Shown here: one piece after another, positions 4,221 to 21,665 of the stretch
How positions within the stretch are numbered: the stretch's first letter is position 1
Layout: each line of letters begins with the position of its first letter
Source: Lysobacter sp. 5GHs7-4
Lineage (GTDB): Bacteria > Pseudomonadota > Gammaproteobacteria > Xanthomonadales > Xanthomonadaceae
DNA: 64,000 bases
Direction of reading: 5' to 3'
Assembly: GCF_021284765.1 (NCBI RefSeq)
Contig: NZ_CP089924.1
Location: 4,482,001 to 4,546,000 of the forward strand
Translations under genes and position numbers: made by a program
Notes under the pieces: generated by a model
What the model was told of the DNA's origin: nothing
Databases searched by the model: none
What the model saw: only the letters and a program-made list of their open reading frames with translations

Positions 4221-5444
4221 ATGCCCGCCACGCCCCGCCCTTCCGACGCCCACCCGTTGCCGTTGCACGCGATCGGCTGCGCCTTGGCGCTGTCGCTGAA
4301 CCTGCTCTGGCCGCACAGCGCATCTGCGCAGACCGATGTCGCGCCGCAGGTCGCGCTGGCACCGGTCGAGGTGCGCACGCCGTGGGCGCCTGCGGCGGTC
4401 GTCGGCGGCGATGGCCGCAGTCATCTGGCTTACGAACTGCACGTGAGCAATTTCTATCGCGACACCGGCGTGCTGCGCCTGCGCCGCATCGCGGTGTACG
4501 CCGATGCGCAGAGCGCGCCGCTGGCGAGTTTCGAAGGACAGGCGCTGGCGCAGATCGTGCAAGCGCAGCCGGCCGACGACGCCGCCAGTGATGGCGTGCT
4601 GGTAGCGGCCGGCATGCGCGCGATCGCGTTCGTATGGCTGACCCTGCCGGCGGGCACGGCGGCGCCGCACACGCTGCGCCATCGGTTGGAGTTCGTCGAC
4701 GCCAAGGGCGCGCTGCAACTGGTCGACGGCGCGCGCGTGGCGGTCGACGCGACACCGCCGGTGCGGCTGGGCCCGCCGCTGCGCGCGGGGCTGTGGCTGG
4801 CGAGCGAAGGGCCGGGCAATTCGCGCTCGCACCATTGGGGCAGCCTGGTCGCGGCCAACGGCCAGGTCACCATTCCGCAGCGCTACGCGCTGGACGTGTT
4901 CGGCCTGGACGACCACGGCCGCGCACTGCGCAACGGCGCGCTGGACCTGCGCAAGAGCAAGCGCGAGGACTGGATCGGATACGGCAGCGACGTGCTCGCG
5001 GTCGCCGACGGCGTGGTGCGCGACGTGCGCGACGGCCAGCCGGACCACTCGCCGCTGGAGGCGCAGCCGGAACCCGAATCGCTGACCGCTGCCGGCCTGT
5101 ACGGCAACTACGTGGTGCTGGAGATCGCGCCGCAGGTGTTCGTGCATTACGCGCATCTGCAGCCCGGCAGCGTGGGCGTGAAAGTCGGCCAGAAGGTGCA
5201 GCAAGGCGCCACGCTGGGTCGCATGGGCCAGTCGGGCAACACCAACGGGCCGCACCTGCATATCCATGTGTCGAACGCGGCGACGTTCGAAGGCTCCGAA
5301 GGGCTGCCGTTCGTGTTCGAACGCTACGCTTCGCCCGGCGACTGGACGCTGACCCAGGCGATCGACCCGGCATCCACGTTCAGTCCCAAGCGCGAACCGC
5401 ATCGCGATCAGATGCCGCTGGACGGCGAGGTGATGGGGTTCTGA
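4221..5444 (+). CDS. Secreted M23-family metallopeptidase (LytM-like)
   Basis: The 407-aa protein begins with a signal peptide (hydrophobic segment [14 protein letters not shown], cleavage likely after HSASA near residue 37). A beta-rich domain of about 170 residues follows, then a C-terminal M23 peptidase domain at about 200-385. The zinc motif GPHLHIHV is clear, and HYAHL plus [23 protein letters not shown] match the fold. The first ligand pair is unusual: the position normally reading H-x-G-x-D is RYALD, and the likely His is in SHHWGSL about 18 residues earlier. It is probably a periplasmic peptidoglycan endopeptidase or a related factor. It converges on the M16 pair with a 33-base gap. 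An alternative ATG at 4180 would lengthen the signal region. Confidence 0.85.
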
Positions 5445-5477
5445 GCGGGCGCGCCAGCCGCGCCAGCGCAGGCACGG

Positions 5478-6755
5478 CTAGCCGTCCTCGTACGGCCCTG
5501 CGATGCAGGTGCTCCAGCGCTGCGGCTGCAGGCCCTCGCCGATCGCGCGATTGAGTTGTTCCAGCGTGAGCGCGGCCATGCGCCGCTCGTAGCCGCGCAG
5601 ATCGCCGGGTGATTCGCCCCGCTCGGCCTCCGCCAGGATCGCCGCGCTCAAGCCGTCCAGCGTGGCCAGGCCGATTTGATAGGCGCCGATCGCCGCGCGG
5701 CGCGCGCTCTCGAACTCCGGCGCCTGCACGCCCGACGCCGCCAGTTCCGCGATGGTCTCGCGCGTCACGGCCACCGCATCGTCGAGCTTGTCGGGACTGG
5801 CCGACAGCGCGACCTGCCAATGACCGCTGCCACGCGGCGCGTCGACCAGCGTGGAACGGATCGCGTAGCTGAGGCCGCGCTGTTCGCGCACGCGCGCGAC
5901 CAGACGCGAGGCGTAGGCGCCGCCGAGGATACGGTTGGCCAACTGCAGGGCGGTATGGTCCGGATGCGCGCGACCGACGGCCAGGCGCTGGCCCATCGCC
6001 ACGCCGTAGCTCTCCTGCTCCGGCAAGCGCATGCGCACCCGCTGCGCCGTCGCGTCAGGCGTCACCCGATCCTCCTCGGCCGGCAGCGCGCACGGCGTCC
6101 ACGGCGCCAGCTCGCGTTCGACCAGACGCGCGGCCTCGTGCGGATCGACGTCGCCGACCACCGCGATGCGCAGCTCGTTGGCGCCGTAGCGCTCGCGATG
6201 ACAGCGGCGCACGTCGGCGATGCCGTAGCGTTCCAGCTGTGCGATCTGCTCGTCGGTGCCGGGCTCGTAAGCGGGATGCGCCGGCGGATACAGCGAACGC
6301 GTGAGCGCGCTGGCGGCGGCATGGCCGGGATCGATCGCGCGGTACTGCAACTCGGCGATCATGCGCGCGCGTTCGGCGTCGAGCAGGGCCTGATCGAACT
6401 CGGGTTCGCGCAGGCAGGCCAGGGTCCAGGCCAATACCGGTTCCAGATCGCTGGCGCAGGCGCGCGCGCTGAAGCGCAGGCCGTCCGCGTCGGCTTCGAC
6501 CGCGTACGAGGCGCCGCGGCCTTCCAGCAACTCGGCGATCTCGCAGCCATCGTGGCGCGCGCTGGCGCAACCCACCAGAGCCGCGACCAGGCGCTGCAGC
6601 ATGACCTCGCCGGGCTGCGATGCCGGCCCGGTGCGCAAGCGCCCGCTGACGGCGACGATGGCTGGCGTGCCCGCGCGCAGCCCGTAGTAATCCGCGTGCG
6701 CCAACGGCAAGGCGAGGACCGACGGCGGCATGTCGGAACGCAGCTGCGCGTTCAT
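5478..6755 (-). CDS. M16 peptidase-like subunit lacking the zinc site (RiPP cluster)
   Basis: The 425-aa product is the second half of a split M16 (insulinase/PqqL-type) pair. It lacks the HxxEH zinc motif (the equivalent helix reads EVMLQRLVAALVGC). It keeps the Arg/Tyr substrate-binding motif of the C-terminal M16 domain in GGAYASRLVARVREQRGLSYAIRS. Its ATG overlaps the TGA of the catalytic subunit (ATGA 6752-6755), which favours equimolar production and heterodimer formation. Known heterodimeric bacterial M16 enzymes divide the zinc and R/Y motifs between subunits in this way. It is the last gene of the precursor/P450/MATE operon, so I infer that it helps degrade or trim the leader of the four WRW peptides. 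Confidence 0.88.
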   Translation of the reverse strand: MNAQLRSDMPPSVLALPLAHADYYGLRAGTPAIVAVSGRLRTGPASQPGEVMLQRLVAALVGCASARHDGCEIAELLEGRGASYAVEADADGLRFSARACASDLEPVLAWTLACLREPEFDQALLDAERARMIAELQYRAIDPGHAAASALTRSLYPPAHPAYEPGTDEQIAQLERYGIADVRRCHRERYGANELRIAVVGDVDPHEAARLVERELAPWTPCALPAEEDRVTPDATAQRVRMRLPEQESYGVAMGQRLAVGRAHPDHTALQLANRILGGAYASRLVARVREQRGLSYAIRSTLVDAPRGSGHWQVALSASPDKLDDAVAVTRETIAELAASGVQAPEFESARRAAIGAYQIGLATLDGLSAAILAEAERGESPGDLRGYERRMAALTLEQLNRAIGEGLQPQRWSTCIAGPYEDG

Positions 6756-8101
6756 GCCGACACCGCCTGCGGCGCGCGCGCGTCGAACGTATCGACGAGA
6801 TAGGCCACGGTCAGCCCGCGATCGCTCAGGTAGCGCTGCGCGACCCGCTCGACATCGGCGGCGCTCACCGCCGCGATGCGGTCGGCCGCCGCCGCGTAAC
6901 CGCGCCAATCGCCGCAGGCGATGGCCTCGTTCAACTGCATCGCCACCGCCAGCGGTCCGTCGCGCGAGGTCAGCAGGCTGCCGCGGATGCGCGCCTTCGC
7001 GCGCGCGACTTCCTCGTCGCCGACGCCGTCGCGGCGCAACTCGTCCAACGCGGCGCGCAGGGCCTGTTCGACCTGCGCGTGTTCGCACTCCGGATGCACG
7101 ACCGCGCCCAGTTGCAGCAGCCCCGGACAGCGCAGGCGCGCCAGGCTGGGCCAGACCTCGGTGGCCAGACCCGCCGCGATCAGCCGGCGGTGCAGGCGCG
7201 ACGCGCGGCCGCCGGCCAGGACCAGGCCCAGCACCTCCAGCGCGTCCAGGTCGGGATCCACGCCCGCAGGCGTGCGGTAGGCCAGCATCACGATGCCCGG
7301 CGCGCCGGCGGATTCGACGACGGTCCGGCGCTCGCTCTCCTGCTCGGGTTCGGGCGTTTCCGCGAACGCCGCTTGCGGCCGTGCCGGCAGCGCGCCGAAA
7401 TGGCGTTCGGCCAGCGCCCAGGCTTCGTCGCGCCCGACGTCGCCCAGTACGGTCAGGGTGGCGTTGTCGGGCCGATAGTGGCGACGGTAATGCGCCAGCA
7501 AATGATCGCGCTGGAAACCGGCGATGTCCTCGCGCACGCCCAGCACCGGCACGCCATAGGCATGCCGCGCGAACGCGGTACGCCAGACCGCCTGGTGCAG
7601 CAGCTCGACGGGGTCGCCGAGATGGCGGTCGAACTCGTTGAGCACCACCGCCTTCTCGGTCTCCAGCTGCGCCGGATCCAGGTTCAGATGGTTCATGCGG
7701 TCGGCCTCGATCTGCGCGACCAACTCCAGGCTGTCGCGCGGCACCAGACTGAAATAGTGCGTGCGGTCGTACCAGGTGGTGGCGTTGGCCTGCGCGCCCA
7801 GCGGCAGCAGCAGATCGAGGATGCCGTTGCCGCGCCGCGGATCGAAGGCCGCGCTGCCTTTGAACATCATGTGTTCGAGCATGTGGCTGGCACCGCGCAC
7901 GCCGTCGGCCTCGTGACGGCTGCCGACGTCGTAGGTCAGCATCAGCAGCGCCACCGGCGCGGTGCGCATCGGCAGATGCAGCACGTTCATGCCGTTGCCG
8001 GCCAGCCGATGCGCCTGCCATCCGCCGCCGTCGCCCGATGGCGGCGACGCGGACGCGGCGCTGCTGGCGTCGAAGCTCGATCGTGCTGCCGTCGCATCCA
8101 T
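6752..8101 (-). CDS. M16 zinc metallopeptidase, catalytic subunit (RiPP cluster)
   Basis: The 449-aa protein carries the inverted zinc motif HMLEH at residues 73-77 (GASHMLEHMMFKG). The third zinc ligand is probably Glu156 in ETEKAVVLNEF. There is no signal peptide; a Ser/Ala/Gly-rich N-terminus precedes the domain, so it should be cytoplasmic. It lacks the R-x-n-Y motif, which is supplied by the overlapping downstream gene. The gene lies 16 bases after the MATE stop and has an AGGA about 10 bases before its ATG. In this context a leader-processing role before or during export is likely. A PQQ-type role is less likely because no pqqA-E genes are nearby. Confidence 0.9.
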   Translation of the reverse strand: MDATAARSSFDASSAASASPPSGDGGGWQAHRLAGNGMNVLHLPMRTAPVALLMLTYDVGSRHEADGVRGASHMLEHMMFKGSAAFDPRRGNGILDLLLPLGAQANATTWYDRTHYFSLVPRDSLELVAQIEADRMNHLNLDPAQLETEKAVVLNEFDRHLGDPVELLHQAVWRTAFARHAYGVPVLGVREDIAGFQRDHLLAHYRRHYRPDNATLTVLGDVGRDEAWALAERHFGALPARPQAAFAETPEPEQESERRTVVESAGAPGIVMLAYRTPAGVDPDLDALEVLGLVLAGGRASRLHRRLIAAGLATEVWPSLARLRCPGLLQLGAVVHPECEHAQVEQALRAALDELRRDGVGDEEVARAKARIRGSLLTSRDGPLAVAMQLNEAIACGDWRGYAAAADRIAAVSAADVERVAQRYLSDRGLTVAYLVDTFDARAPQAVSA

Positions 8102-8117
8102 CCGTACGGTCCTGTCG

Positions 8118-9509
8118 TTATCGGGTCGCCGGCAGGCTTGCGGCCGCCAGACCGTCGTCGGCCGCCAACGGCGCCGGTTCCGCCGGACGGCCGAACTCGC
8201 GCCGCAGGAACCACCAGGCCATCAGCGCCTGGGTGGAGCCGGCGGCGACCATCGACCACCAGATCCAGACCGGACGGAAACCGGCCAGCATCGACAAGCT
8301 GCCGGCCACGCACACCAGCAGCACCATATGCAGCAACTGCGCGATCAGGCCGGCGCGGGTATTGCCCATGCCGGACAGCACGGCGAACGCGGTGTTGGCC
8401 AGGCACAGCGGGATGAAGTCGATCGCCGTGATGCGCATGAACGAAGCGCTGGCCGCGACCACCTGCGCATCGTCGGAGAAGCGACTGCCGATCCAGGGCG
8501 CCAGGCTCTCGAACACCAGCAGCAGCACCGGCACCAGCACGCAGGCGAAGACAAGGCCGGTGCGCAAGGTTTCGTTGACGCGATCGCGCAAGCCGGCGCC
8601 GTAGTTCTGGCCGACGATGATGCAGATCGCACCGGTGAGCGCGGTCAGCGGCATCAGCCCGGCCTGGAACGCACGCTGTCCGACCGCGAAGCCGGCCTGC
8701 TCGACCGGACCGAACGGACGCAGCATCAGGCCGATCGCCAACAGCGACACCGCCACCACGCCGCTGCCGATGCCGGCGGGAATGCCGATCTTGATCGCCG
8801 ACCACAGCTCCTGCGGCCAGGCGAACCACAGGCGCGGCCGCATGCGCAGGTAGGCGTCCTTGCGCGCCAGATAACCCAGCAAAGCCAGCATGACCAGCGA
8901 GCAGGCCAGCAACGAACCGGCGCCGTTGCCGTCCACACCCATCGCCGGCATGCCCAGCCAGCCGAACATCAGCACCGGCGTCGCCACCGCGCCCAGCGCC
9001 ACCGTGCCGACCTGGGCGAGCGCGCCGGCCCTGACGTTGCCGGTGAACTCCAGCATCGTGGCCAGCACCAGCATCGGGATCTGCACGGCGATGGAAGGAA
9101 TGAACCAGCCGTAGTACGAGGCGATCGTCGCCGCGGTGGCGGCGTCGGCGGTCATGACGTGGCTCAAGGCGTCGCGGCAGCTCCAGGCGACCAGCGCCAC
9201 CAGCGCCGACACGATCAGCGACGCGCCGAACGCCTCGTTGAAGATGCGGTCGACGCGGCCGTGATCCTTGGCGCCCACCGCATGCGACAGCAGCACGCCG
9301 GCGCCCATGCTCAGCACCGGCATCAAGGTCAGCGCCAGCATCATCGGCATCGCCGCCAGGGTCACCGCCGCCTGCGCGGTCGGTCCCAGCCGCCCCAGCC
9401 AATAAAGGTTGATCAGCGCGAATACCGTCGAGGCCAGCGCGTTCAACAGCAGCACGCCGCCCATCTTCAACAGATGGCGCGCGATCGGGCCTTCGGTCAG
9501 ATCCTGCAT
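8118..9509 (-). CDS. MATE-family multidrug/peptide efflux transporter (RiPP cluster)
   Basis: The 463-aa protein has about twelve hydrophobic segments in two similar halves, as in the MATE (MatE) family. The N-terminal half contains LINLYWLGRLGPTAQAAVTLA and GVLLSHAVGAKD, and the second half contains AGFAVGQRAFQAGLMPLTAL and CIIVGQNYGAGL. MATE proteins exchange Na+ or H+ for organic compounds across the inner membrane. The gene sits between P450-1 (25-base gap) and the M16 pair (16-base gap) on the same strand. I infer export of the finished WRW-type peptide, and possibly self-protection. Confidence 0.92.
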   Translation of the reverse strand: MQDLTEGPIARHLLKMGGVLLLNALASTVFALINLYWLGRLGPTAQAAVTLAAMPMMLALTLMPVLSMGAGVLLSHAVGAKDHGRVDRIFNEAFGASLIVSALVALVAWSCRDALSHVMTADAATAATIASYYGWFIPSIAVQIPMLVLATMLEFTGNVRAGALAQVGTVALGAVATPVLMFGWLGMPAMGVDGNGAGSLLACSLVMLALLGYLARKDAYLRMRPRLWFAWPQELWSAIKIGIPAGIGSGVVAVSLLAIGLMLRPFGPVEQAGFAVGQRAFQAGLMPLTALTGAICIIVGQNYGAGLRDRVNETLRTGLVFACVLVPVLLLVFESLAPWIGSRFSDDAQVVAASASFMRITAIDFIPLCLANTAFAVLSGMGNTRAGLIAQLLHMVLLVCVAGSLSMLAGFRPVWIWWSMVAAGSTQALMAWWFLRREFGRPAEPAPLAADDGLAAASLPATR

Positions 9510-9534
9510 GGCCTTCCTCCGCGGCGGGCAGCGG

Positions 9535-10770
9535 TCACGGACGCACCACGGTGCCGGTGAAATCCATCGGACGGATCACCGAGGCGATCGCCATCTTCGC
9601 CCGCTCGGGCTCGGACACCTGCAGGCGGTAACGGGTGCTGAGCAGGTGCGCCATCAGGATCAGCTCGCCCAGGCCGAGGTTGGCGCCGATGCAGGACTTG
9701 GGCGCCCAGCCGAACGGCACGTAGCTGCCGTGCGGGCATTGCTCGCGGCTCTCGGACAGCCAGCGATCGGGATCGAACACGTCCGGGTTCGACCATTCGC
9801 GGCCGTCGTGATGGGTGAAGAAGGAACTCAACACATAGACCTGACCGGCCTTGAGCTGGGTGTCGCCATGGCAGATGTCGGTGCGCACGTTGCGCGTGAC
9901 GATAGGCGGCGAACTCCAGATGCGCAGCACTTCCTTGATGAAACGCGTGGTGGTCGGCGCCAGGCGTGCCGGCGATTCGCACAGGGCGTCCAGGGAAAGC
10001 GCCGACAACTCGGCCATCATGCGTTCGCGCCATGCATCCTGGCGATGCCATTCGTACAGCAGGCAGGCCGCGGACGCGCCCGGCGAGCTGGTGATCGCGG
10101 TCAGCAATGCGGTCACCGCGTCGGCGGCGCGGTCCAGGCCCAACGCCGGCATCATGTCCACCATCGGATCGGTCAGATCCTGCTGGCGCGGGCGGCTGCC
10201 GTTGGCACGCCCCTTCAACTCGCGCCGGACCACCATCCCGACCTGGAACTGGTACGCCCACATCCGCGGCTTGTGCATCGGCGGACAGCGGTGCTCGTCG
10301 ATGTCCGACAGCACCAGCGCCACCTTCGACATCACTTCGCGCACCACCCGCTTGTGCGCGCGCGGCGACAGGCCGGCGATGATGGCCGGCACCAACGGCT
10401 CCAGCATGGCGCGCTCGGCCAGCCAGACCAGGTCCTGGTCGCGCCCGACCTCCGCGTCCAGCAGTTCCTGCATGCGCAGGCTCAGGCGCTTGAAGCCCTC
10501 GGCGCTGGTGAGGTTGCGCATCTGCCCCAACCAGCCGGCGCGCACCTGGTGCCAGGACACCGGTTCGCTGCTGCGGCCGCGGATCACGTCGGAGAAGCCG
10601 TCGAGCATGGTCAGGTCGGCGTAGTTCGCCGCCTCGACGCGTTGCGCGGTCTCCGCGTCGACCACGGCCAGGGCCTGCTCGCCCTTGAGCCAGAACACTG
10701 TGCCGTCCTCCTCCATGCGCCGACGGAACGCCTGCACGGTGGGAATTTCCAATACCTTCGTGTCCTGCAT
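9535..10770 (-). CDS. Cytochrome P450 with divergent heme and I-helix motifs (RiPP cluster, P450-1)
   Basis: The 411-aa protein is a soluble bacterial-type P450. The K-helix ExxR is in FIKEVLRIWSSPP. The heme loop is PFGWAPKSCIGANLG with the axial thiolate at Cys360. The usual FGxGxHxCxG is degenerate here: the second Gly is Ala and the His is Lys. The I-helix reads ITSSPGASAACLLYEWHR, so the acid/Thr pair used for ordinary oxygen activation is missing. P450s that form C-C, C-O or C-N links between aromatic side chains often diverge at these places. It lies 76 bases downstream of precursor 1. Its likely substrate is the W-R-W-V-x-Y-H-N-I tail of the precursors. Confidence 0.93.
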   Translation of the reverse strand: MQDTKVLEIPTVQAFRRRMEEDGTVFWLKGEQALAVVDAETAQRVEAANYADLTMLDGFSDVIRGRSSEPVSWHQVRAGWLGQMRNLTSAEGFKRLSLRMQELLDAEVGRDQDLVWLAERAMLEPLVPAIIAGLSPRAHKRVVREVMSKVALVLSDIDEHRCPPMHKPRMWAYQFQVGMVVRRELKGRANGSRPRQQDLTDPMVDMMPALGLDRAADAVTALLTAITSSPGASAACLLYEWHRQDAWRERMMAELSALSLDALCESPARLAPTTTRFIKEVLRIWSSPPIVTRNVRTDICHGDTQLKAGQVYVLSSFFTHHDGREWSNPDVFDPDRWLSESREQCPHGSYVPFGWAPKSCIGANLGLGELILMAHLLSTRYRLQVSEPERAKMAIASVIRPMDFTGTVVRP

Positions 10771-10814
10771 CGTCCGCGTCCCTGGGTGGATGAGCTACAG
10801 CGCATGGAAACCGA

Positions 10815-10834
10815 AGGGCGGCGCGTCCCGCCCT
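10815..10834 (-). terminator. Hairpin after precursor 1
   Basis: AGGGCGG (10815-10821) pairs perfectly with CCGCCCT (10828-10834) across a 6-base loop. It lies 12 bases after the precursor 1 stop and before P450-1. There is no T-run, so it is more likely an attenuator or mRNA-stabilising stem than a strong terminator. Confidence 0.4.
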
Positions 10835-10846
10835 CGGCGTTACCGC

Positions 10847-10948
10847 TCAGATGTTGTGGTACTGCACCCAGCGCCACGAGGTGATGCCGCAGCCCGAGGC
10901 GCCGCGCACGCCGAAAGCGGCTCGCATCGCGCAAATGACCTTCTTCAT
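10847..10948 (-). CDS. RiPP precursor peptide 1 (core ...WRWVQYHNI)
   Basis: This is a 33-aa peptide. Residues 1-19 are MKKVICAMRAAFGVRGASG, the part shared by all four paralogues. Residues 20-33 are CGITSWRWVQYHNI. AGGAGA lies about 8 bases before the ATG. The last nine residues hold two Trp, a Tyr and a His in fixed positions (W25, W27, Y30, H31) with variable position 29. This fits a modified core flanked by two P450 genes. The short leader has no double-Gly/Ala protease motif other than the GASG segment. It is a RiPP precursor by inference from paralogy and context; I do not match it to a named family. Confidence 0.85.
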   Translation of the reverse strand: MKKVICAMRAAFGVRGASGCGITSWRWVQYHNI

Positions 10949-10980
10949 GTCGTCTCTCCTGTTGGACTGGCGAATGCCGA

Positions 10981-11082
10981 TCAGATGTTGTGGTAGGCGA
11001 CCCAACGCCACATGGTGATGCCGCAGCCCGAAGCGCCGCGCACACCGAAGGCGGCACGCATCGCGCAAATGACCTTCTTCAT
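10981..11082 (-). CDS. RiPP precursor peptide 2 (core ...WRWVAYHNI)
   Basis: This 33-aa peptide is identical to precursor 1 through residue 23, including the CGIT segment. It ends MWRWVAYHNI, so only positions 24 (Ser to Met) and 29 (Gln to Ala) differ. AAGGAGA precedes the ATG by about 7 bases. Only 32 bases separate it from precursor 1, against about 230 bases between the other copies. The 1-2 pair therefore looks like the youngest duplication or one that lost its spacer. Confidence 0.85.
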   Translation of the reverse strand: MKKVICAMRAAFGVRGASGCGITMWRWVAYHNI

Positions 11083-11279
11083 TTCGTCTCTCCTTGTTGG
11101 GATGGTGGGTATCGACTGCGTTTACGCCACGGCGCCGTCGCGATGTCCGGCCACGGCTCGTGGAGTCTGGTTGCGACGGCCGCTTCGGACCGCCGCGGAA
11201 TTCCGATCGCACCTGCGGAGGAACCGAAGGCCGGGGGTCGCGCCGTGCGCGCCCGCGAGCCGATGCCCTCCCGGTCTAA

Positions 11280-11306
11280 GCCGGAGGCGGCAACGCCGCC
11301 TCCGGC
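11280..11306 (-). terminator. 12-bp perfect hairpin after precursor 3
   Basis: GCCGGAGGCGGC (11280-11291) is followed by a 3-base loop and then its exact reverse complement (11295-11306). It lies 8 bases past the precursor 3 stop. The very stable stem lacks a following T-run on the coding strand. The same hairpin recurs after precursor 4, so it was copied with the gene and may set precursor mRNA levels. Confidence 0.6.
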
Positions 11307-11314
11307 ATCGCGAC

Positions 11315-11422
11315 TCAGATGTTGTGGTAATGCACCCAACGCCAGAAGCCGATGCCGACGTTGGCACCGGAAGCACCGCGCACGCCGAAGGCGGCCCGCA
11401 TCGCGCAAATGACCTTCTTCAT
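11315..11422 (-). CDS. RiPP precursor peptide 3 (core ...WRWVHYHNI)
   Basis: This is a 35-aa peptide. The 19-residue leader-like part is identical to that of precursors 1 and 2. It is followed by ANVGIGFWRWVHYHNI, with two extra residues compared with the CGIT forms. The invariant W27, W29, Y32 and H33 keep the same distances to the C-terminus, so the anchor for processing is the C-terminal end. AAGGAGAAG lies about 7 bases before the ATG. Confidence 0.85.
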   Translation of the reverse strand: MKKVICAMRAAFGVRGASGANVGIGFWRWVHYHNI

Positions 11423-11624
11423 ATCGCACTTCTCCTTGTTGATATGTGGGTTTACCGCGTCACGCCACGACGCCGGGCCCTGCCTCGGCCTTCGCGCCTT
11501 GGAGTCCTTGCTGCACCGGTCGCGTTGCGGCCGGCGCGAAATGGGGAGGTATCGGTACTGCCGCGATGTCGACGATGGGCGATCGGGGATACGGCTGCGA
11601 TTCGCATCGGCGCGGCATCGCTAA

Positions 11625-11651
11625 GCCGGAGGCGGCGGTGCCGCCCCCGGC
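11625..11651 (-). terminator. Hairpin after precursor 4
   Basis: GCCGGAGGCGGC (11625-11636), a 3-base loop and GCCGCCCCCGGC (11640-11651) form the same stem as after precursor 3, with one mismatch. It begins 8 bases past the precursor 4 stop. Confidence 0.55.
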
Positions 11652-11659
11652 CCCACCAC

Positions 11660-11767
11660 TTAGATGTTGTGGTAGGTCAGCCAACGCCAGCCGCCGATGC
11701 CGATGCTGGCGCCGGAAGCACCGCGCACACCGAAGGCGGCCCGCATCGCGCAAATTACCTTACTCAT
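11660..11767 (-). CDS. RiPP precursor peptide 4 (core ...WRWLTYHNI)
   Basis: This 35-aa peptide is the most divergent copy. It starts MSKVICAMRAAFGVRGASG (Lys2 to Ser) and continues ASIGIGGWRWLTYHNI (Val to Leu and a Thr before Tyr). The two Trp, the Tyr, the His and the terminal Asn-Ile are kept. Its stop is TAA where the others use TGA. GGAGTGA lies about 7 bases before the ATG. It is the first precursor after P450-2 (gap 148 bases). Confidence 0.85.
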   Translation of the reverse strand: MSKVICAMRAAFGVRGASGASIGIGGWRWLTYHNI

Positions 11768-11915
11768 ATCGAATCACTCCATGTGGATATGTGGGTACTG
11801 ACTGCGTTTACGCCACGATCCGCGCGGCCACTCCTGCCGCGCGCGCCGTGGAGCCCTTGCTGCGGCGCTCGCCGGGCGAGCGCCACGAATGCTGGATCGT
11901 GATCGGTGTGCGTCC

Positions 11916-13055
11916 TCAGCGCGACGGTCGGACCTGCAGCGTGAACGGCGGCGGCGCCATCGCCGCGGCCACCGTCGGACGGTCGCCGTGCGCAACCACG
12001 TCGACCTCGCCCAGCGCGAGCACGCAGCGCAGCATGTCGGCGACCAGTTGCGTGGCCAGATCGGCCGCGACGCAACGGTGCGCGCCATGGCCGAACGGGA
12101 TGAAGGCCGGATTGCGCCAGGCCTGCTCATCGGCCCAGCGCTCGGGACGGAACTCGGCCGGCTGCGCCCAATGCGCGGCGTTGCGCTGCACCAGATACGG
12201 ACACACCACGACTTCGTCCGACACCTCGACCTGCACGCCCGACAGTTCGTGCGCCTGGGTCGGATGGCGCCCCAGCTGCCAGGCCACCGGCCACAGCCGC
12301 AGCGCTTCCTGCACGATCCATTCCGCCGGCACGTCGCGGCGCGGATGCGTGCCCCACAAGTACAGCGACCACGCCAGCACGAAGCCCACCGAACCCGACA
12401 CGGCGAACAGGAACGACAGGTAGACCTCGGTCAGTTCGTCCTGGCGGCGCTGGGGCCCGTCCGAGTTCGCCACCACGTCGAGCATGTCCCGCGGCGGATC
12501 GCGCGGCGCGCGCTGGCAGTCGCCGATCGCGCCGGACAAGCGCAGCGTGGTGTTGAACTGCAGCCACATGCGCCGCCAGCGCGGCTGCCGCGCGCGCGCG
12601 CCGGCGAGCACGGAACGCTCGACGATCCGGTCGAGCAGACGGCGCAACGCCGGCGGACGCTCGGGCGCCAGCAACACCGGCAGCAGGTAGCGATAGCTCA
12701 GCCAGTTGCCGGCGTCGGGCCAGCGACTGGTCGCTGGCACTTGCTGGGCGATGAAATCGCGCAGCGCATCCGGGCCACGCGACTGCAGGAATTCGCGCAG
12801 CAGACCGCGCGCTTCGCGGCGCATCTTCAGCTGCGCCGAACGCGGTTCGAAATAACCGTAGCGGGTGTGGAAGAAATCGGAATGCTCGGCGTAACTGCCG
12901 TCGGCGTTGCTGAGCACCAGCCGCGCGGCAGCGGCATTGCCGAGGCTGTACTCGTTGCGTCCGGTCTGGACGATATCGCCGGCGCCGGATAATTCCCGGT
13001 CCAGAAATCCAAGCGGGTCCCGCTGAAAGCCGGACCAGGCTTCTTCTTTCAACAC
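11916..13055 (-). CDS. Cytochrome P450 (RiPP cluster, P450-2)
   Basis: The 379-aa protein has a canonical heme loop FIPFGHGAHRCVAADL with the thiolate at Cys328, and ExxR in QEALRLWP. The I-helix reads LFAVSGSVGFVLAW: the conserved acid/alcohol pair is replaced by Ser-Gly-Ser-Val, which fits a cross-linking rather than a hydroxylating enzyme. It starts with GTG at 13055, supported by GGAGGG five bases before it. It shows little obvious similarity to P450-1 outside the motifs, so the two enzymes probably do different steps. It is the first gene of the operon, about 100 bases from the predicted promoter. Confidence 0.92.
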   Translation of the reverse strand: MLKEEAWSGFQRDPLGFLDRELSGAGDIVQTGRNEYSLGNAAAARLVLSNADGSYAEHSDFFHTRYGYFEPRSAQLKMRREARGLLREFLQSRGPDALRDFIAQQVPATSRWPDAGNWLSYRYLLPVLLAPERPPALRRLLDRIVERSVLAGARARQPRWRRMWLQFNTTLRLSGAIGDCQRAPRDPPRDMLDVVANSDGPQRRQDELTEVYLSFLFAVSGSVGFVLAWSLYLWGTHPRRDVPAEWIVQEALRLWPVAWQLGRHPTQAHELSGVQVEVSDEVVVCPYLVQRNAAHWAQPAEFRPERWADEQAWRNPAFIPFGHGAHRCVAADLATQLVADMLRCVLALGEVDVVAHGDRPTVAAAMAPPPFTLQVRPSR

Positions 13056-13150
13056 ACGCCCTCCGATCCTGAAATCACGGGTGCTGATGCTGGGTTGTAC
13101 GACGGCCGCGCCGCCTGGAGCTGCAAATCGCGGTGAAATCCTTCACCTGC

Positions 13151-13164
13151 ACTCGACGTCGAGT
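13151..13164. promoter_or_regulatory. Perfect 14-bp palindrome, candidate operator
   Basis: ACTCGACGTCGAGT is its own reverse complement. It overlaps the last bases of the predicted -10 box and covers the expected transcription start of the P450-2/precursor operon. That is where a repressor dimer would block initiation. No obvious regulator gene is adjacent, so the binding protein is unknown. Confidence 0.5.
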
Positions 13165-13191
13165 ATGGTCACCGTGAATGTGCCTCGTCAA
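13162..13191 (-). promoter_or_regulatory. Candidate sigma-70 promoter of the RiPP operon
   Basis: On the minus strand TTGACG (13191-13186) and CATACT (13167-13162) are separated by 18 bases, with five and four or five matches to consensus hexamers. The predicted start is near 13155, giving a leader of about 100 bases before the GTG of P450-2. Confidence 0.5.
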
Positions 13192-13444
13192 GCACGTTTC
13201 TGCATGATTTCAGTGCGCCTTGTCGGCAGCTCGGCACCACCATGTCGTGGCTATGTCGCGGGCGATTCCGTCGCCGATACGTACGCGTACGGCATGGCGG
13301 ACAGGCGCATGACAGCGACCGTTCGTCGGCGCGGCGCGCGGTACGACCGAACCGTGCACCGTTGCTGGAGGCTGTATCCGATCGATGGCGGGGCCGTGAT
13401 GCGCCGACCTGGCGATGCGCTCGCGACGATCCGCCGCAAGCGGC

Positions 13445-14335
13445 TCAATCCTGCGTGGGCTTGCGCCTCGCGCGCGGGTGCGCGGCGTCGTAGACCTTGG
13501 CCAGGTGCTGGAAATCCAGATGGGTGTAGATCTGGGTGGTGGCGATGTCGGCGTGGCCCAGCAGTTCCTGCACGCCGCGCAGATCGCCGGAGGATTCCAG
13601 GATGTGGCTGGCGAAGGAATGACGCAGCAGGTGCGGATGCACGCGCTTGAACAGGCCCTGGCGTTGCGCGAGCTGGCGCAACCGCAGCTGCACCGCGCGC
13701 GGACTGATCGGCGCGCCGCCGCGGCCCGGAAACACCGGCGCTTCGTTGACCGCGCCGGTGGATGCACGCCACTCGGCCAGCGCCACGCGCGCGTGCGAAC
13801 CCAGCGGCACGCTGCGTTGCTTGTTGCCCTTGCCCAGCACGTTGACCAGGCCGTCGGACAGATCCAAATCGCGCCAGCGCAAGCCGCATAGTTCGCTCAG
13901 GCGCAGGCCCGAGGAATAGAACAGCTCCAGCAGCGCGCGGTCGCGCAATCCCAGCGGCGCATCGGTGGGCACTTCGACCAGGGCCTTGGCCTCGTCCGGG
14001 TCCAGCACCTGCGGCAGCTTGCGCGGCGCCTTGGGCGCGCGAATCGCGGCGGCCGGGCTGCTGTCGACGCGGCCCTGCTTCAGCAGCCAGCCGTAGAAGC
14101 TGCGGCAGGCCGACAGACGCCGCTGCAGGCTCTTGGGCGTGAGGCCGCGGCGGTGTTCAGCGGCGATGAAGGCGCGCAGTTGTTCGGCATGCAGGGTCAG
14201 CAAGTCGAAACCCTGCGCCTGCACCCAATCGCTCAAAGCGAGCAGGTCGCGACGGTACGCGTCCAGCGTGTGCGCGGACATGCGCCGCTCGACGTGCAGA
14301 TGGGCCAGAAAGTCTTCGATCGGTCCGACGGACAC
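13445..14335 (-). CDS. xerC: Site-specific tyrosine recombinase XerC
   Basis: The 296-aa protein is a full-length Xer recombinase that resolves chromosome dimers at dif. The SAM-like N-terminal domain (about 1-90) precedes the catalytic domain. The latter has Arg in SSGLRLSELCGLRW, HLLRHSFASHIL, the GHADIATTQIYTHLD segment with the nucleophilic Tyr, and a basic tail. It follows DUF484 by 165 bases in the order lptM-dapF-DUF484-xerC known from many gammaproteobacteria. It is core machinery and not the integrase of an island, although the RiPP cluster lies directly downstream. Confidence 0.96.
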   Translation of the reverse strand: MSVGPIEDFLAHLHVERRMSAHTLDAYRRDLLALSDWVQAQGFDLLTLHAEQLRAFIAAEHRRGLTPKSLQRRLSACRSFYGWLLKQGRVDSSPAAAIRAPKAPRKLPQVLDPDEAKALVEVPTDAPLGLRDRALLELFYSSGLRLSELCGLRWRDLDLSDGLVNVLGKGNKQRSVPLGSHARVALAEWRASTGAVNEAPVFPGRGGAPISPRAVQLRLRQLAQRQGLFKRVHPHLLRHSFASHILESSGDLRGVQELLGHADIATTQIYTHLDFQHLAKVYDAAHPRARRKPTQD

Positions 14336-16894: not shown

Positions 16895-19087
16895 TCAGTG
16901 CGTTGCGGTGGCGGCACCGCCGCCGGCCAGGCCCAGCTGGCCGAGCATGAAGGCGAACATTTCCGCTGACTCGCGGTAGCGCTGGAAGCGGCCGGACTTA
17001 CCGCCGTGGCCGGCTTCCATGTTGGTGCGGAACACCACCGGATACGCGCCGGTGTTCAGATCGCGCAGGCGCGCCACGTACTTGGCCGGTTCGAAGTACT
17101 GCACCTGCGAGTCCCACAGGCCGGTGCCGACGAACATCGCCGGATAGGCCTGCTTGGACAGATTGTCGTAGGGCGAGTACGACAGCATGTAGTCGTAGTA
17201 CTTCTTCTGCTCCGGGTTGCCCCACTCGTCGTACTCGTTGGTGGTCAGCGGGATGCTGGCGTCCAGCATCGTGGTGACCACGTCGACGAAGGGCACCTGC
17301 GACAGGATCACGCGATACTTGTCCGGCGCCATGTTGGAGATCGCGCCCATCAGCAGGCCGCCGGCGCTGCCGCCGTAAGCGGCGACGCGGTCCGGTGCGG
17401 CATAGCCGGCCTTGACCAGGTAGTCGGTGACGTCGATGAAGTCGGTGAAGGTGTTCTTCTTCTTCAGCAGCTTGCCGTCGTCGTACCACTTGCGGCCCAT
17501 TTCCTCGCCGCCGCGGATGTGCGCGATCGCGTAGACCATGCCGCGGTCGAGCAGGCTGACGTTGGTGACGCTGAAGCCCGGGTCCATCGAGGCGCCGTAG
17601 CTGCCGTAACCGTACTGCAGCAGGGCGGCCTTGCCGTTCTTCTCGAAGCCGCGCTTGTAGACCAGCGAGACCGGAATGCGCGCGCCGTCGCGCGCCGGCA
17701 CCCACACACGCTCGGTCACGTACTGATCGGCGTCGTAGCCGCCCAGCACCGGCTGACGCTTGAGCAAGCGGCGCTCGCCGGTGAGCACATTGAGCTCGTA
17801 CACGGTCGCCGGGGTGGTCAGCGAGGTGTAGCTGTAGCGCAGCCACGGGGTGTCGGTTTCGGGGTTGGAGGACAGGCCCATCGAGTACGCAGGCTCGTCG
17901 GCCTTGACGTACTCGGAGCTGCCGTCGGCCTTGAGCACGCGCACGCGCTCCAGCGCGTCGGAGCGCTCGGCCACGGCGGTGTAGCCCTCGAACAGCTCCA
18001 CGCCCTCGATGTAGACGTCGTCGCGGTGCGCGATCCAGTCCTTCCATTCCTTGCGCGAGGTGGCGCCGCTGGGCGCGGTGACGACCTTGAAGTTGGTGGC
18101 GCCGTCGGCGTTGGTGCGGATCACCCAGCGGCCGTCGAAATGGTCGGCGTCGTACTCGACGTCGCGCGCGCGCGGGGCCAGCACGGTGAACGCGGCGGGA
18201 TCGGCGGCGGGCGCGTAGCGCAGCTCGTCGGAGACCGTGCTGCTGACGCCGATCACGATGTACTTGTCGTCGCGGCTGCGGTCGATGCCCATGTAGAAGC
18301 TGTCGTCCTTCTCCTCGTACACCACCGCGTCCTGCGCGACCGGGGTGCCGAGCACGTGCTTCTTGACGCGCTTGGTCAGCAGCGTCTCCGGGTCGTTCTC
18401 GACGTAGAACAGGGTCTTGTTGTCGTCGGCCCAGACCAGGTTGGCGGACACACCCTTGATCTCGTCGGGATAGCTTTCGCCGGTGACCAGATTCTTGAAG
18501 CGGATGGTGTACTGGCGGCGGCCGTTGGTGTCGTCGGCGTAGGCCAGCAGGGTGTTGTCCTGGCTGATCTCGTAATCGCCGACCTGGTAGTACTTCTTGT
18601 CCTTGGCCAGGGCGTTGACGTCCAGCATCACCGTCTCGCCGGCGAAGTCGCGATCGGCGTTGGCCTTCTGAATGGCCGCGGCGTCGAGGCCGGGGCCGTC
18701 CTTGCGGCGCGCGTAGACCGGATAGTCCTGGCCGGTCTCGAAGCGGCTGTAGTACCAATAGCCGCGCTCGCGGCTGGGCACCGAGCTGTCGTCCTGCTTG
18801 ATGCGGCCGACGATTTCCTCGTAGAGCTTGTTTTCCAGCGGCTTGAGCGCGGCCATCTGCGCGTCGGCGTAGGCGTTCTCGGCGCCGAGATAGGCCAGCA
18901 TCTCCTTGTTCTCGCGCTTGTCGTCGCGCAGCCAGTAGTACTCGTCGTCGCGCTGCGCGCCATGCGGCGCCTTGACCACGTGCGGCTTCTTGGCCACGTC
19001 GGGCGGCTGCGGGGCGTCGGCGGCGGAGGCGTTGGGGGTCGTGGTCATCAGGAGCGTGGCGGCCAGCAGGAGGGAGGTCGGTTTCAT
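16895..19087 (-). CDS. Exported S9A serine peptidase (oligopeptidase B-like)
   Basis: The 730-aa protein has a signal peptide (TSLLLAATLLMTTTPNASA, cut near residue 22). A beta-propeller of about 400 residues and an alpha/beta-hydrolase domain follow. The nucleophile is in YGGSAGGLLMGAISNMAP, the Asp region is in MFVGTGLWDSQVQYFEPAKY and the His is in NMEAGHGGKSGRF. The opening PHVVKAPHGAQRDDEYYWLRDD and the GAISNMAPDKYR segment match oligopeptidase B (cleavage after Arg/Lys). E. coli PtrB has no signal peptide, so this one is a periplasmic or secreted version. A second S9A gene lies just upstream on the same strand. Confidence 0.92.
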   Translation of the reverse strand: MKPTSLLLAATLLMTTTPNASAADAPQPPDVAKKPHVVKAPHGAQRDDEYYWLRDDKRENKEMLAYLGAENAYADAQMAALKPLENKLYEEIVGRIKQDDSSVPSRERGYWYYSRFETGQDYPVYARRKDGPGLDAAAIQKANADRDFAGETVMLDVNALAKDKKYYQVGDYEISQDNTLLAYADDTNGRRQYTIRFKNLVTGESYPDEIKGVSANLVWADDNKTLFYVENDPETLLTKRVKKHVLGTPVAQDAVVYEEKDDSFYMGIDRSRDDKYIVIGVSSTVSDELRYAPAADPAAFTVLAPRARDVEYDADHFDGRWVIRTNADGATNFKVVTAPSGATSRKEWKDWIAHRDDVYIEGVELFEGYTAVAERSDALERVRVLKADGSSEYVKADEPAYSMGLSSNPETDTPWLRYSYTSLTTPATVYELNVLTGERRLLKRQPVLGGYDADQYVTERVWVPARDGARIPVSLVYKRGFEKNGKAALLQYGYGSYGASMDPGFSVTNVSLLDRGMVYAIAHIRGGEEMGRKWYDDGKLLKKKNTFTDFIDVTDYLVKAGYAAPDRVAAYGGSAGGLLMGAISNMAPDKYRVILSQVPFVDVVTTMLDASIPLTTNEYDEWGNPEQKKYYDYMLSYSPYDNLSKQAYPAMFVGTGLWDSQVQYFEPAKYVARLRDLNTGAYPVVFRTNMEAGHGGKSGRFQRYRESAEMFAFMLGQLGLAGGGAATATH

Positions 19088-19141
19088 AGATAGGGTCCGT
19101 TCGCGGAGAGCGCAATGGCCGGCGGGCCGCGGGTCGCCGAA

Positions 19142-19171
19142 AGGCGCCCGCCCGAAGCAGGACGGGCGCCT
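19142..19171 (-). terminator. Hairpin after the second S9A gene
   Basis: AGGCGCCCG (19142-19150) pairs perfectly with CGGGCGCCT (19163-19171) across a 12-base loop. On the minus strand the stem is followed by TTTC. It lies 23 bases beyond the stop of the upstream S9A gene and may separate the two peptidase transcripts. Confidence 0.5.
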
Positions 19172-19193
19172 CGCGGCGCCCGTCGCGGCCGTC

Positions 19194-21335
19194 TTACTTG
19201 GACAGCTTTTCCCAGAGGAAGGTGTAGGCCAGCGCGCTCATGTGCGCGGCCTGGGCGTTGTTGGCCGAGCCGCCGTGGCCGCCTTCGATGTTCTCGTAAT
19301 AGCGCACGTCCTTGCCGGCCTCCATCATCTTGGCCATCATCTTGCGCGCGTGGCCCGGGTGGACGCGGTCGTCGCGGGTCGAGGTGGTGAACAGGGTCGG
19401 CGGATAGTCGCGCTTGGCGTCGAACAGGTGGTAGGGCGAGAAGGTCTTGATGAAGTCCCAATCGGCCGTGTCCGGATCGCCGTACTCGGCCATCCACGAG
19501 GCGCCCGCCAACAGATGGCTGTAGCGCTTCATGTCCAGCAGCGGCACCTGCACCACCACCGCGCCGAACAGCTCCGGGTACTGGGTCAGCATGTTGCCGG
19601 TGAGCAGGCCGCCGTTGCTGCCGCCCTGCACGCCCAGGCGCTTGGGCGAGGTCACCTTGCGCGCGATCAGGTCCTGCGCGACCGCGGCGAAGTCCTCGTA
19701 GGCCTTGTGGCGGTTGGCCTTGAGCGCGGCCTGGTGCCAGCGCGGGCCGTACTCGCCGCCGCCGCGGATGTTGGCGACCACGTACACGCCGCCCTTCTCC
19801 AGCCAGCCCTTGCCGACGCTGCCGGAGTAGCCCGGGGTCATCGAGACCTCGAAGCCGCCGTAACCGTACAGCAGGGTCGGGGTGTTGCCGTCCAGCTTGA
19901 GGTTCTTCGGCCGCACCATGAAGTAAGGCACCTTGGTGCCGTCCTTGCTGGTCGCGAAGTGCTGCTCGATCGTGTCGTTCGACCCGTCGAAGAAGGTCGG
20001 CATGGTTTTGAGCGTTTCCGGCTTCTGCCCCAGCGTGGCGATCGACAGCGTGCTCGGGGTCAGGTAGTCGGTGGCGGTCAGCCAGACGTCGTCGTTGGCG
20101 TCGTCGTCCACCGCCGACACGCCGATGCTGCCGAAGGCCGGCGCGCCGACGAACTCGCTGCGCTGCCAGCTGCCCGGGGTGAGCACGCTGAGCTTGTACT
20201 TCACGTCCTCCATGACGTTGAGCACCAGCTTGTTGCGGGTCCAGGTGGTGCCGGCCAGCGAGCTGCGCTCGGTCGGCTCGAACAGCACGGTGAAATCGCG
20301 CTTGCCGGCCATGAAATCGTCGAAGCGGGCGACGATCAGGCTGCCCGGCTTGTAGGTCTTGCCGCCGGCCGTGTACGGCTCGCGCAGCTCCAGGGTCAAC
20401 CACTCGCGGTGCACGCCCTTCTCGGCCGAATTAGGCGCGTCGATCTTGGTCAGCTTGCCGTCGGCGCCGCGCAGGTAGAGCTCGTTGTTGTAGAAGGCGA
20501 TGGTGCGCGAGACGAAGTCGCGCTCGAAACCTTCGGTGGCGTCGTGGCCGGCGGCGATGTACATGTCCTGCGCCGTGCCTTCGTAGACCACGGTGGCGGC
20601 GCTGAGCGGCGTGCCGCGCTTCCACTGCTTGACGATGCGCGGGTAGCCCGACGAGGTCATGCTGCCGGCGCCGAAATCGGTGAACACGTAGACGTTGTCC
20701 TGGTCGATCCAGCCCAGGCCGCCCTTGGCTTCGGGACGGAAGTAGCCGTCCTTGACCCAGGTCTTGCTGGCCAGGTCGAACTCGCGGGTGACGTCGGCGT
20801 CGGCGCCGCCGCGCGACAGCGCGATCAGGCAGCGCTGGTACTGCGGCTTGAGGCAGTCGGCGCCGTGCCACACCCAGTTCTCGCCCTCGGCCTTGTTCAG
20901 CGCGTCCAGGTCGATCACGGTTTCCCAGGCCGGCTTGTCCTTGCGGTACTCGGCCAGACTGGTGCGGCGCCACAGGCCGCGCTGGTGGTTCGCGTCCTTC
21001 CAGAAGTTGTAGTAGTGGTCGCCGATCTTCATCACGCCGGGAATCTTGGCGTCGGAATCGAGGATGGCGCGGATGTCGGCTTCCAGGGTCTTGAACGCCG
21101 GCGTGGCGGCCAGTTCGGATTCGGCTTGGGCGTTGCGCTCGCGCACCCAGGCGAGCGGACGCTCGCCCTGCACGTCTTCCAGCCAGGCGTAGGGATCGGA
21201 CCCGTCGGTGGTCATTTTGGCGGCCTCCTCGGCAGCGGCGGCGGTGGCGACCGGCGCCACCAGGCCGGCGATGCCGATGGACAGCATTCCTACCGAAACG
21301 AGCAACGGCTTACAGGCCTTGGACAGCGTGGACAT
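19194..21335 (-). CDS. Exported S9A prolyl oligopeptidase family serine peptidase
   Basis: The 713-aa protein has a signal peptide (PLLVSVGMLSIGIAGLVAPV, cut near residue 35) and the prolyl-oligopeptidase opening DPYAWLEDVQGERPLAWVRE. The propeller spans about 80-440. The catalytic domain has Ser in VQGGSNGGLLTGNMLTQYPE, Asp in TSTRDDRVHPGHARKM and His in IEGGHGGSANN. It should cleave peptides in the periplasm or outside the cell. It and the downstream oligopeptidase-B-like gene are paralogous in architecture but clearly different in sequence. The start at MSTLSKAC was chosen for the clean signal peptide. Confidence 0.93.
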   Translation of the reverse strand: MSTLSKACKPLLVSVGMLSIGIAGLVAPVATAAAAEEAAKMTTDGSDPYAWLEDVQGERPLAWVRERNAQAESELAATPAFKTLEADIRAILDSDAKIPGVMKIGDHYYNFWKDANHQRGLWRRTSLAEYRKDKPAWETVIDLDALNKAEGENWVWHGADCLKPQYQRCLIALSRGGADADVTREFDLASKTWVKDGYFRPEAKGGLGWIDQDNVYVFTDFGAGSMTSSGYPRIVKQWKRGTPLSAATVVYEGTAQDMYIAAGHDATEGFERDFVSRTIAFYNNELYLRGADGKLTKIDAPNSAEKGVHREWLTLELREPYTAGGKTYKPGSLIVARFDDFMAGKRDFTVLFEPTERSSLAGTTWTRNKLVLNVMEDVKYKLSVLTPGSWQRSEFVGAPAFGSIGVSAVDDDANDDVWLTATDYLTPSTLSIATLGQKPETLKTMPTFFDGSNDTIEQHFATSKDGTKVPYFMVRPKNLKLDGNTPTLLYGYGGFEVSMTPGYSGSVGKGWLEKGGVYVVANIRGGGEYGPRWHQAALKANRHKAYEDFAAVAQDLIARKVTSPKRLGVQGGSNGGLLTGNMLTQYPELFGAVVVQVPLLDMKRYSHLLAGASWMAEYGDPDTADWDFIKTFSPYHLFDAKRDYPPTLFTTSTRDDRVHPGHARKMMAKMMEAGKDVRYYENIEGGHGGSANNAQAAHMSALAYTFLWEKLSK

Positions 21336-21665
21336 CGGCGCTCCGCGATACAGGGAAAGGCCGAACGCTAGCACAGGCCCGGGGGAGGCCCGCCTGTCCG
21401 AAGTCATAGGGGGAGTCGGCCGCGCTGGCGCGTTGCGCTGCGGCGGTGTGCCCGATATCGCTACGTTTTGCCTACTTTGGCGGCACGAACGAATGGGGCG
21501 TGGCTCTAAGGCGGCGCGCGCCCCGCGGCGCCATCGCGCGCCGCAGCCCCGGCACGGGGCGGTCAGAGCCGCATCGTCCCGAGCGGATGACCGCGGACCG
21601 CACGCGCCTGAGCCGGGCGGCCCGGAGGTCTCCGGCTCCGAGCGAGCCGGCCGGGGCGACCAGGC
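21336..21665. other. GC-rich intergenic region, no gene supported
   Basis: About 330 bases lie between the S9A promoter side and the small membrane protein. Composition is extremely GC-rich with short inverted repeats such as GGCGCGCG/CGCGCGCC around 21513-21545. Frames through it read as Arg/Ala/Pro-rich noise. Confidence 0.4.

Follow-up and report, generated by a model that had tools for sequence, protein, structure and literature searches.

What would two cytochrome P450s (P450s), four peptides of 33-35 amino acids (aa), a transporter and a pair of peptidase subunits make together? The question is raised by a compact cassette on the minus strand of a 64,000-nucleotide stretch of Lysobacter sp. 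5GHs7-4 (contig NZ_CP089924.1, positions 4,482,001 to 4,546,000), which is termed the window in the following. In the order of transcription, the cassette encodes P450A, four short open reading frames (ORFs), P450B, a MATE-family transporter and the peptidase subunits M16a and M16b. We consider it probable that these genes form a pathway for a ribosomally synthesized and post-translationally modified peptide (RiPP), in which the two P450s would cross-link Trp, Tyr and His of the C-terminal tail, the M16 pair would remove the leader, and the MATE protein would export the product. Cross-linking, leader removal and export are suggested by the co-occurrence of two P450s and an M16 pair with a transporter and a W-x-W-x-x-Y-H set of oxidisable side chains that does not vary. 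A P450-modified, RiPP-like pathway had already been put forward in a sequence-only reading of this DNA; it is still the best reading, and conservation over 10 genomes strengthens it well beyond the single window. The gene order, the strand, the four small paralogues, the MATE gene and the ATGA-coupled M16 pair described there were all recovered at the same positions, as listed below in window coordinates.

11916-13055, minus strand: P450A, 379 aa (Pfam p450, E 6.7e-22; AlphaFold predicted local distance difference test score, pLDDT, 89.9)
11660-11767, minus strand: precursor 1, 35 aa, tail WRWLTYHNI (from the ORF and its relatives)
11625-11651, minus strand: GC-rich hairpin 3' of precursor 1, without a T tract and absent among the terminator-like sites
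11315-11422, minus strand: precursor 2, 35 aa, tail WRWVHYHNI
11280-11306, minus strand: GC-rich hairpin 3' of precursor 2
10981-11082, minus strand: precursor 3, 33 aa, tail WRWVAYHNI, without a hairpin; precursor 4 starts 32 nucleotides (nt) downstream
10847-10948, minus strand: precursor 4, 33 aa, tail WRWVQYHNI
10811-10838, minus strand: GC-rich hairpin 3' of precursor 4
9535-10770, minus strand: P450B, 411 aa (Pfam p450, E 1.1e-23; AlphaFold pLDDT 87.6)
8118-9509, minus strand: MATE-family transporter, 463 aa, likely an exporter (Pfam MatE, E 2.8e-34; TIGR00797, 136.7 bits, below the cut-off of 147.4)
6752-8101, minus strand: M16a, 449 aa, catalytic-type subunit with an HMLEH zinc motif (Pfam M16 and M16_C)
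5478-6755, minus strand: M16b, 425 aa, partner subunit without HxxEH (Pfam M16_C); its start overlaps the M16a stop by 4 nt (ATGA)

Precursor peptides and conservation of the cassette

The four window peptides, MSKVICAMRAAFGVRGASGASIGIGGWRWLTYHNI, MKKVICAMRAAFGVRGASGANVGIGFWRWVHYHNI, MKKVICAMRAAFGVRGASGCGITMWRWVAYHNI and MKKVICAMRAAFGVRGASGCGITSWRWVQYHNI, are each preceded by GGAG. They share 17 of the 18 residues after Met1, as had been claimed, and end in W-R-W-[V/L]-x-Y-H-N-I. Of 297 family genomes, 8 are matched at E <= 1.6e-10 by a profile of the four peptides, among them the window's own, and each match adjoins the same genes. At E <= 1 a match is found in 224 of the 297 genomes, 216 of which have weak matches only and were dropped. 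In a set of 398 phylum genomes, a DNA pattern for the tail matches that of the window and no other, and its reversed control stands at zero throughout the genomes listed. In genomes of named species, a DNA pattern picked out ten stretches, of which six proved real: Lysobacter sp. cf310, Lysobacter sp. Root76, Lysobacter sp. CFH 32150, Luteimonas aquatica, a metagenome-assembled genome (MAG) of Lysobacterales, and Dokdonella fugitiva. The other four (Holdemanella, Lederbergia, Bacteroidaceae and Chitinophagaceae) were dropped as chance matches for want of an in-frame leader, one of them having a stop inside the tail. Further cassettes in the family are found in L. silvisoli (G062) and in genome G013. 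The tenth cassette genome, of the genus of L. aquatica, encodes a P450B that is 100% identical to that of Luteimonas sp. JM171; a protein search of 52 genomes matched two, this JM171-like genome and L. aquatica. Its precursor, MKRVMIAMKAAMGVRGGMCRGGLGWHWVMYHNI, ends in WHWVMYHNI (L088). Genome mining with the precursors, as recommended in the sequence-only reading, and the protein search have together located the same gene set in nine other Lysobacterales genomes.

All 10 genomes examined that have a close P450B (at least 50% identity) contain this gene set, precursors included, and in eight of the nine relatives the genes run P450A, precursors, P450B, MATE, M16a, M16b. The exception is the JM171-like genome, where MATE, M16a and M16b are encoded together on the strand opposite the P450s (L088 5998-12568). 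The identity of this genome to the window is down to 53-57% for the P450s and 28% for M16b, and the gene set has therefore been held together over a long divergence. Among the 297 family genomes, a P450B of at least 60% identity and precursors at E <= 1.6e-10 occur in the same 8 and in no others. In the family holding Dokdonella, P450B is matched at E <= 1e-40 in 1 of 227 genomes; among 369 genomes of the class, with at most five first-look candidates scored per genome, only the window's own has P450A at E <= 1e-40; and a plasmid collection holds no P450B relative at E <= 1e-20. In FastTree phylogenies of P450A, P450B, MATE and M16a, a group made up of the window genome, cf310, Root76, L. silvisoli and L. 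aquatica is set apart from the remaining five genomes, each time with a support value of at least 0.99. The branching among those five and the placement of the JM171-like genome differ between the four trees. The two Luteimonas cassettes fall on different sides of the trees, which hints at transfer.

The 10 genomes encode 22 precursors of 30-35 aa, with one to four per genome. Their comparison reveals that the tail W-R-W-[V/L]-x-Y-H-N-I proposed earlier holds in the window and has to be widened for the relatives, in which His replaces Arg once and Thr replaces Asn once. The resulting consensus is W-[R/H]-W-x-x-Y-H-[N/T]-I, in which W1, W3, Y6, H7 and I9 are invariant, R2 and N8 are each present in 21 of the 22 precursors, position 4 is V, L, Q or Y, and position 5 is occupied by eight different residues. 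In the leader, A7, A11, G13 and R15 are invariant. For 21 of the precursors, the pN/pS ratio (nonsynonymous to synonymous differences) amounts to 0.26 in leader codons 2-16 and to 0.40 in the tail, which indicates that the precursors evolve as proteins. Chance small ORFs were rejected as an explanation by the profile E values, the specificity of the DNA pattern and pN/pS. Paralogues of the same kinds (WRWLT, WRWVH and CGIT type) recur in three genomes, those of the window strain, cf310 and L. silvisoli, which would give each strain a few different products. We also note that the tail His is encoded by CAC in all 22 precursors, whereas the five large cassette genes of the window use 26 CAT and 24 CAC; the uniform codon may reflect the codon choice of highly expressed genes or RNA pairing, GTGGT following the stop in several cases.

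These data bear on the possibility that the small ORFs encode an unmodified secreted peptide, a signal or a bacteriocin, and that an unrelated small molecule is the substrate of the P450s. Such a peptide could well be accompanied by a peptidase and a MATE transporter. However, P450 genes flank the precursors on both sides in all ten genomes, and it is the oxidisable W, W, Y and H that are fixed, next to positions that vary. No maker of another P450 substrate is apparent among the eight neighbouring ORFs scanned (window 459-28408), a comparison that concerns the flanks of the window. We regard this explanation as very improbable.

Most precursor genes are followed by a strong predicted hairpin. 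The 45 nt after the stop fold at -23 kcal/mol or below in 20 of the 22 precursors, compared with 4.1% (104 of 2514) of the control windows drawn from these loci. A looser base-pair count was non-discriminating (20 of 22 precursors versus 486 of 1540 control windows, 32%) and was replaced by this energy control. The stem sequences vary between genomes, a terminator scan requiring a T run found no terminators at the window hairpins, and Rfam gave no match at gathering score within window 5000-14000. We read the predicted hairpins as RNA ends or stabilisers that would hold the precursor message above the enzyme message.

P450 enzymes and their distant relatives

An acid-alcohol pair in the I helix is usual in monooxygenating P450s. 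Both cassette P450s retain ExxR, and 40-row alignments reveal that neither has this pair: the I helix of P450A mostly reads A-x-A-G-S-V-G (motif A-x-[AS]-G-S-V-G), and that of P450B lacks the pair as well. The heme loop of P450A is FGHGAHRC in the window and FG[HWY]G[PAR]H[RTQ]C in the alignment. P450B has an unusual loop, F-G-W-A-P-K-S-C-I-G in the window and F-G-W-[ASP]-P-x-x-C in the alignment, in which Trp and Pro never vary, Ala (32 of the 40 rows) or Ser (7 rows) takes the place of the usual Gly, and Pro is followed by Lys or Arg in 35 rows. The second P450 had been described as unrelated-looking, which does not hold: each of the two aligns to the counterpart of the other in the relatives at 20-34% identity (E 5e-12 to 6e-7), and they are distant relatives of each other. 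The AlphaFold models of both are good. The one close solved relative of P450A is PDB 9ulw (E 5.6e-74), whose molecule name is only 'Cytochrome P450'; a search with the 9ulw sequence found relatives in Pseudoalteromonas (44% identical) and Shewanella (40% identical), and the P450A kind thus reaches beyond Lysobacterales.

Relatives of P450B at 31-34% identity occur in seven further genomes of the family, with no P450A, MATE or M16 match within 20 kb. In all seven loci, an ORF of 32-33 aa lies directly upstream of the distant P450B gene, and five distinct peptides are encoded. Four loci have a core of the form W-[KN]-[TV]-W-P-[LY]-W-V-E-F, and three have I-R-S-K-Y-[RI]-Y-W-[NI]-[IL]-F, two of these with a GTG start. 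The small ORFs are located as follows, in the coordinates of each locus.

9066-9164 of L070: second-group ORF
11083-11181 of L071: second-group ORF
9426-9527 of L072: second-group ORF
11011-11112 of L073: second-group ORF
11154-11252 of L074: second-group ORF
10809-10910 of L075: second-group ORF
8858-8956 of L076: second-group ORF

The DNA following these ORFs folds at only -6 to -17 kcal/mol. The ORF and its P450B-like gene are likely a separate, minimal P450-RiPP pair of seven Lysobacteraceae genomes. The sequence-only reading had named homologues regularly found without the small ORFs as a point that would speak against it. In readable DNA, to which this comparison applies, many more homologues being known only as proteins, none of the 10 genomes with a close P450B lacks the small ORFs, and all seven distant P450B genes have a different one.

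Protein searches, in which about 8,000 candidates each were scored, extend the P450 pair further. These results concern the best 120 of 284 matches for P450A, of 167 for P450B and of 303 for 9ulw. P450A- and P450B-type proteins are found, among the matches listed, in MAGs of Kofleriaceae, Thermoanaerobaculia, Myxococcaceae, Acidobacteriota and Herpetosiphonaceae, taxa that we take to belong to Acidobacteriota, Myxococcota and other phyla. Comparison of the longest contigs of at least 4 kb revealed 26 of equal size in the P450A and P450B lists, as against 0-2 with offset sizes, which suggests that P450A-type and P450B-type genes lie on shared contigs. Among the listed matches on contigs of at least 10 kb, 18 of 45 (P450A) and 18 of 43 (P450B) are shared. 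One Acidobacteriota MAG encodes a 9ulw/P450A-type and a P450B-type protein, QOH06_4232 and QOH06_4234. The P450 pairs elsewhere suggest that the family is wide.

Proposed pathway and its alternatives

In the proposed pathway, leader residues 1-16 would be the handle read by P450B, since the lone distant P450B-type genes adjoin small ORFs with a weakly similar leader and different aromatic tails. P450B would form the first macrocycle, most likely a W-x-x-Y bridge from the second Trp (W3) to Tyr (Y6). It is placed first because its distant relatives stand alone with small ORFs, and this bond is chosen because the P450 ScaB joins residues of the same spacing in the Pseudomonadota precursor XaaA by a C-C bond (PMC12352619). 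P450A would then add a second bond from the first Trp or from His, so that the tails would weigh 4 Da less than their encoded forms. Cleavage by the M16 pair would fall close to the residue that precedes the first Trp, a position at which nine kinds of residue over 20 precursors suit such a cut. The MATE protein would export the product, and the hairpins would maintain a surplus of precursor mRNA relative to that of the enzymes. As to the role of the product, which could be an antibiotic, a signal or a metal ligand, our guess is an exported antagonist of other bacteria.

M16 pairs are known from RiPP clusters, among them PqqF/PqqG and AlbE/AlbF. The cassette subunits have the make-up of an M16 heterodimeric processing peptidase, one subunit with HxxEH and one without, encoded together: the motif is present in M16a in 9 of 9 genomes checked and in M16b in 0 of 9, and the tenth locus (L088) has both genes. 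M16a and M16b presumably also pair as proteins. The M16 pair PesP1/P2 of the pes RiPP cluster is called its native protease, although its cleavage in vitro was poor (PMC13060819).

Alternatively, P450B may be the only cross-linking enzyme, and P450A may carry out another oxidation of the core, such as hydroxylation, dehydrogenation or formation of a side-chain to backbone bond. The distant P450B-type genes, which in all seven loci stand beside a small ORF without P450A within 20 kb, would fit this division, as would the canonical heme loop FG[HWY]GPHRC in most P450A rows; moreover, a single P450 is described as installing all three bonds of tryptorubin A (PMC12352619). Against this, the acid-alcohol pair is missing from P450A too, and P450A, found in 10 of 10 cassettes, equals P450B in conservation. 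On balance we find this alternative unlikely, with a real residual chance.

Several points weigh against the pathway with two cross-linking P450s. It is deduced from sequence, by which either P450 may make either bond or may only hydroxylate. A redox partner is absent among the five large cassette proteins. The fold lends no support to a peptide substrate, because the structure matches (best 50 of about 1,650 per P450) are diverse P450s at 13-20% identity. The best NCBIfam model of both P450s, ApyO, describes a P450 that cross-links peptides and would in itself favour the pathway, but the scores, 58.4 and 68 bits, are far short of the cut-off of 525, and the likeness is unspecific, as the model also gives sub-cut-off matches in 7 of 14 control genomes. 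The likeness of the leaders between the two groups is modest (hhalign probability 53%, E 1.3e-4, 13 versus 4 peptides, residues 1-20). Finally, contigs of at least 10 kb without a partner among the listed matches of the other search number 27 of 45 for P450A and 25 of 43 for P450B; such unshared hits are no proof of absence, since the lists are clustered and cf310, which has both genes by its DNA, appears in one list only.

If the leader likeness is real, P450B-type enzymes would read the leader and tolerate different aromatic tails. A broader arrangement can be entertained, to which we give somewhat less than even chances: a RiPP superfamily, large and so far undescribed, whose hallmark would be P450B, a peptide macrocyclase with an F-G-W-A-P-K-x-C heme loop that would read a 16-residue helical leader. 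The Lysobacterales would form the first branch seen, with a second P450 bond and doubly cross-linked W-x-W-x-x-Y-H nonapeptides, and the same P450 pair would occur together in Acidobacteriota, Myxococcota and other phyla. Were this true, two-P450 peptides of many further kinds would remain to be discovered.

Comparison with known families and neighbouring genes

P450-made aromatic bridges are sought-after scaffolds, and their best-known makers are single enzymes, many of them from actinomycetes. The cassette combines short precursor genes with a conserved leader and core, beside modifying enzymes (22 precursors in 10 genomes), which is the arrangement of a RiPP locus.

Atropopeptides (tryptorubin, scabrirubin; PMC11450843, PMC12352619) resemble the cassette in having, beside a P450, a short precursor with an N-terminal leader, a C-terminal aromatic core and W-x-x-Y spacing. 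They have been reported in Xanthomonas, there often with proteases, and are defined by KSLK or a variant (RSLK, ESLK, KSRK, KPLK, PSLK) at residues 17-20 together with an xWxxxx core (PMC11450843). The possibility that the cassette belongs to this family and has lost the leader motif draws on the core, where [R/H]-W-x-x-Y-H is present in 22 of 22 precursors and R-W-V-x-Y-H fits the xWxxYx cores of several Xanthomonas, and on the proteases frequent beside atropopeptide P450s (PMC11450843). In contrast, a KSLK-type motif is absent from all 22 precursors, and the mostly hexapeptide cores of atropopeptides differ from a tail in which W-R-W precedes and H-N-I follows. The narrow DNA pattern KSLK-x-Wxx[Y/W] matched 3 of the 297 family genomes, no more than its reversed control, for which at least 13 matches were listed; a P450 heme motif is absent within 3 kb of all three. 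The cassette is further set apart from the published description by a longer invariant tail and two conserved P450s, and also by an M16 pair and a MATE gene in every cassette seen and up to four precursors, most with a hairpin. That the cassette is an atropopeptide member without the motif is quite improbable in our estimate.

Biarylitides (BytA/BytO, P450Blt, myxarylin; PMC13417212) likewise combine a P450 with tiny precursor genes, sometimes several, and bonds between Tyr, His and Trp. Their precursors are of five residues (up to eight among mined ones) with aromatics at positions 3 and 5 (PMC13417212), in contrast to the 30-35 aa and the conserved leader found here. Aminopyruvatides (ApyO; PMC13192836) offer a Gram-negative RiPP P450 that forms aromatic bonds in a C-terminal motif, and their product requires three different metalloenzymes (PMC11117315), whereas the large proteins of the cassette are two P450s, a MATE transporter and two M16 subunits. 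Both P450s score far below the ApyO cut-off, as given above, and the whole genome of the window strain has 0 places above it. The pes (nitrilobacillin) cluster of Peribacillus has two M16 peptidases, two precursors and a transporter; its modifying enzymes are MNIO and AS-like proteins, not P450s (PMC13060819).

The cassette would work in the manner of the atropopeptide or biarylitide pathways. By these features it would nevertheless be a P450-modified RiPP kind outside atropopeptides, biarylitides and aminopyruvatides, as it has no KSLK-type motif and no five-residue precursor and falls far below the ApyO cut-off. In the open-access literature, no description of the cassette was found in the titles and abstract beginnings of the matches listed, an absence that is no proof, and a search for Lysobacter, RiPP and P450 gave nothing that looks related. 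The cassette likely represents an undescribed family of cross-linked, exported peptides. With two conserved P450s, a likely protease and exporter of its own and a nine-residue tail that hardly varies, it would provide a compact system for dissecting how two P450s share the labour on one peptide, and the predicted tails make the pathway readily testable. Because of their small size, the precursors likely escape routine annotation.

The window genome is a single contig of 4.71 Mb, of a genus shared with cf310 and Root76. An M23 peptidase gene adjoins the cassette on one side; the other side has genes for an Xer-like recombinase of the Phage_integrase family and for a diaminopimelate epimerase. 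One promoter-like site lies upstream of P450A (13162-13191), against 0.3 expected, which is too weak for use. Two adjacent genes of the prolyl oligopeptidase family are located outside the cassette at window 16895-21407. Among the second-group loci, the pair of L072 adjoins a gene for a type IV secretion coupling protein. The strongest of the weak profile matches (G124 contig C8, L077 207-287, E 1.7e-4) has an internal stop, and its genome also carries a pair of the second family.

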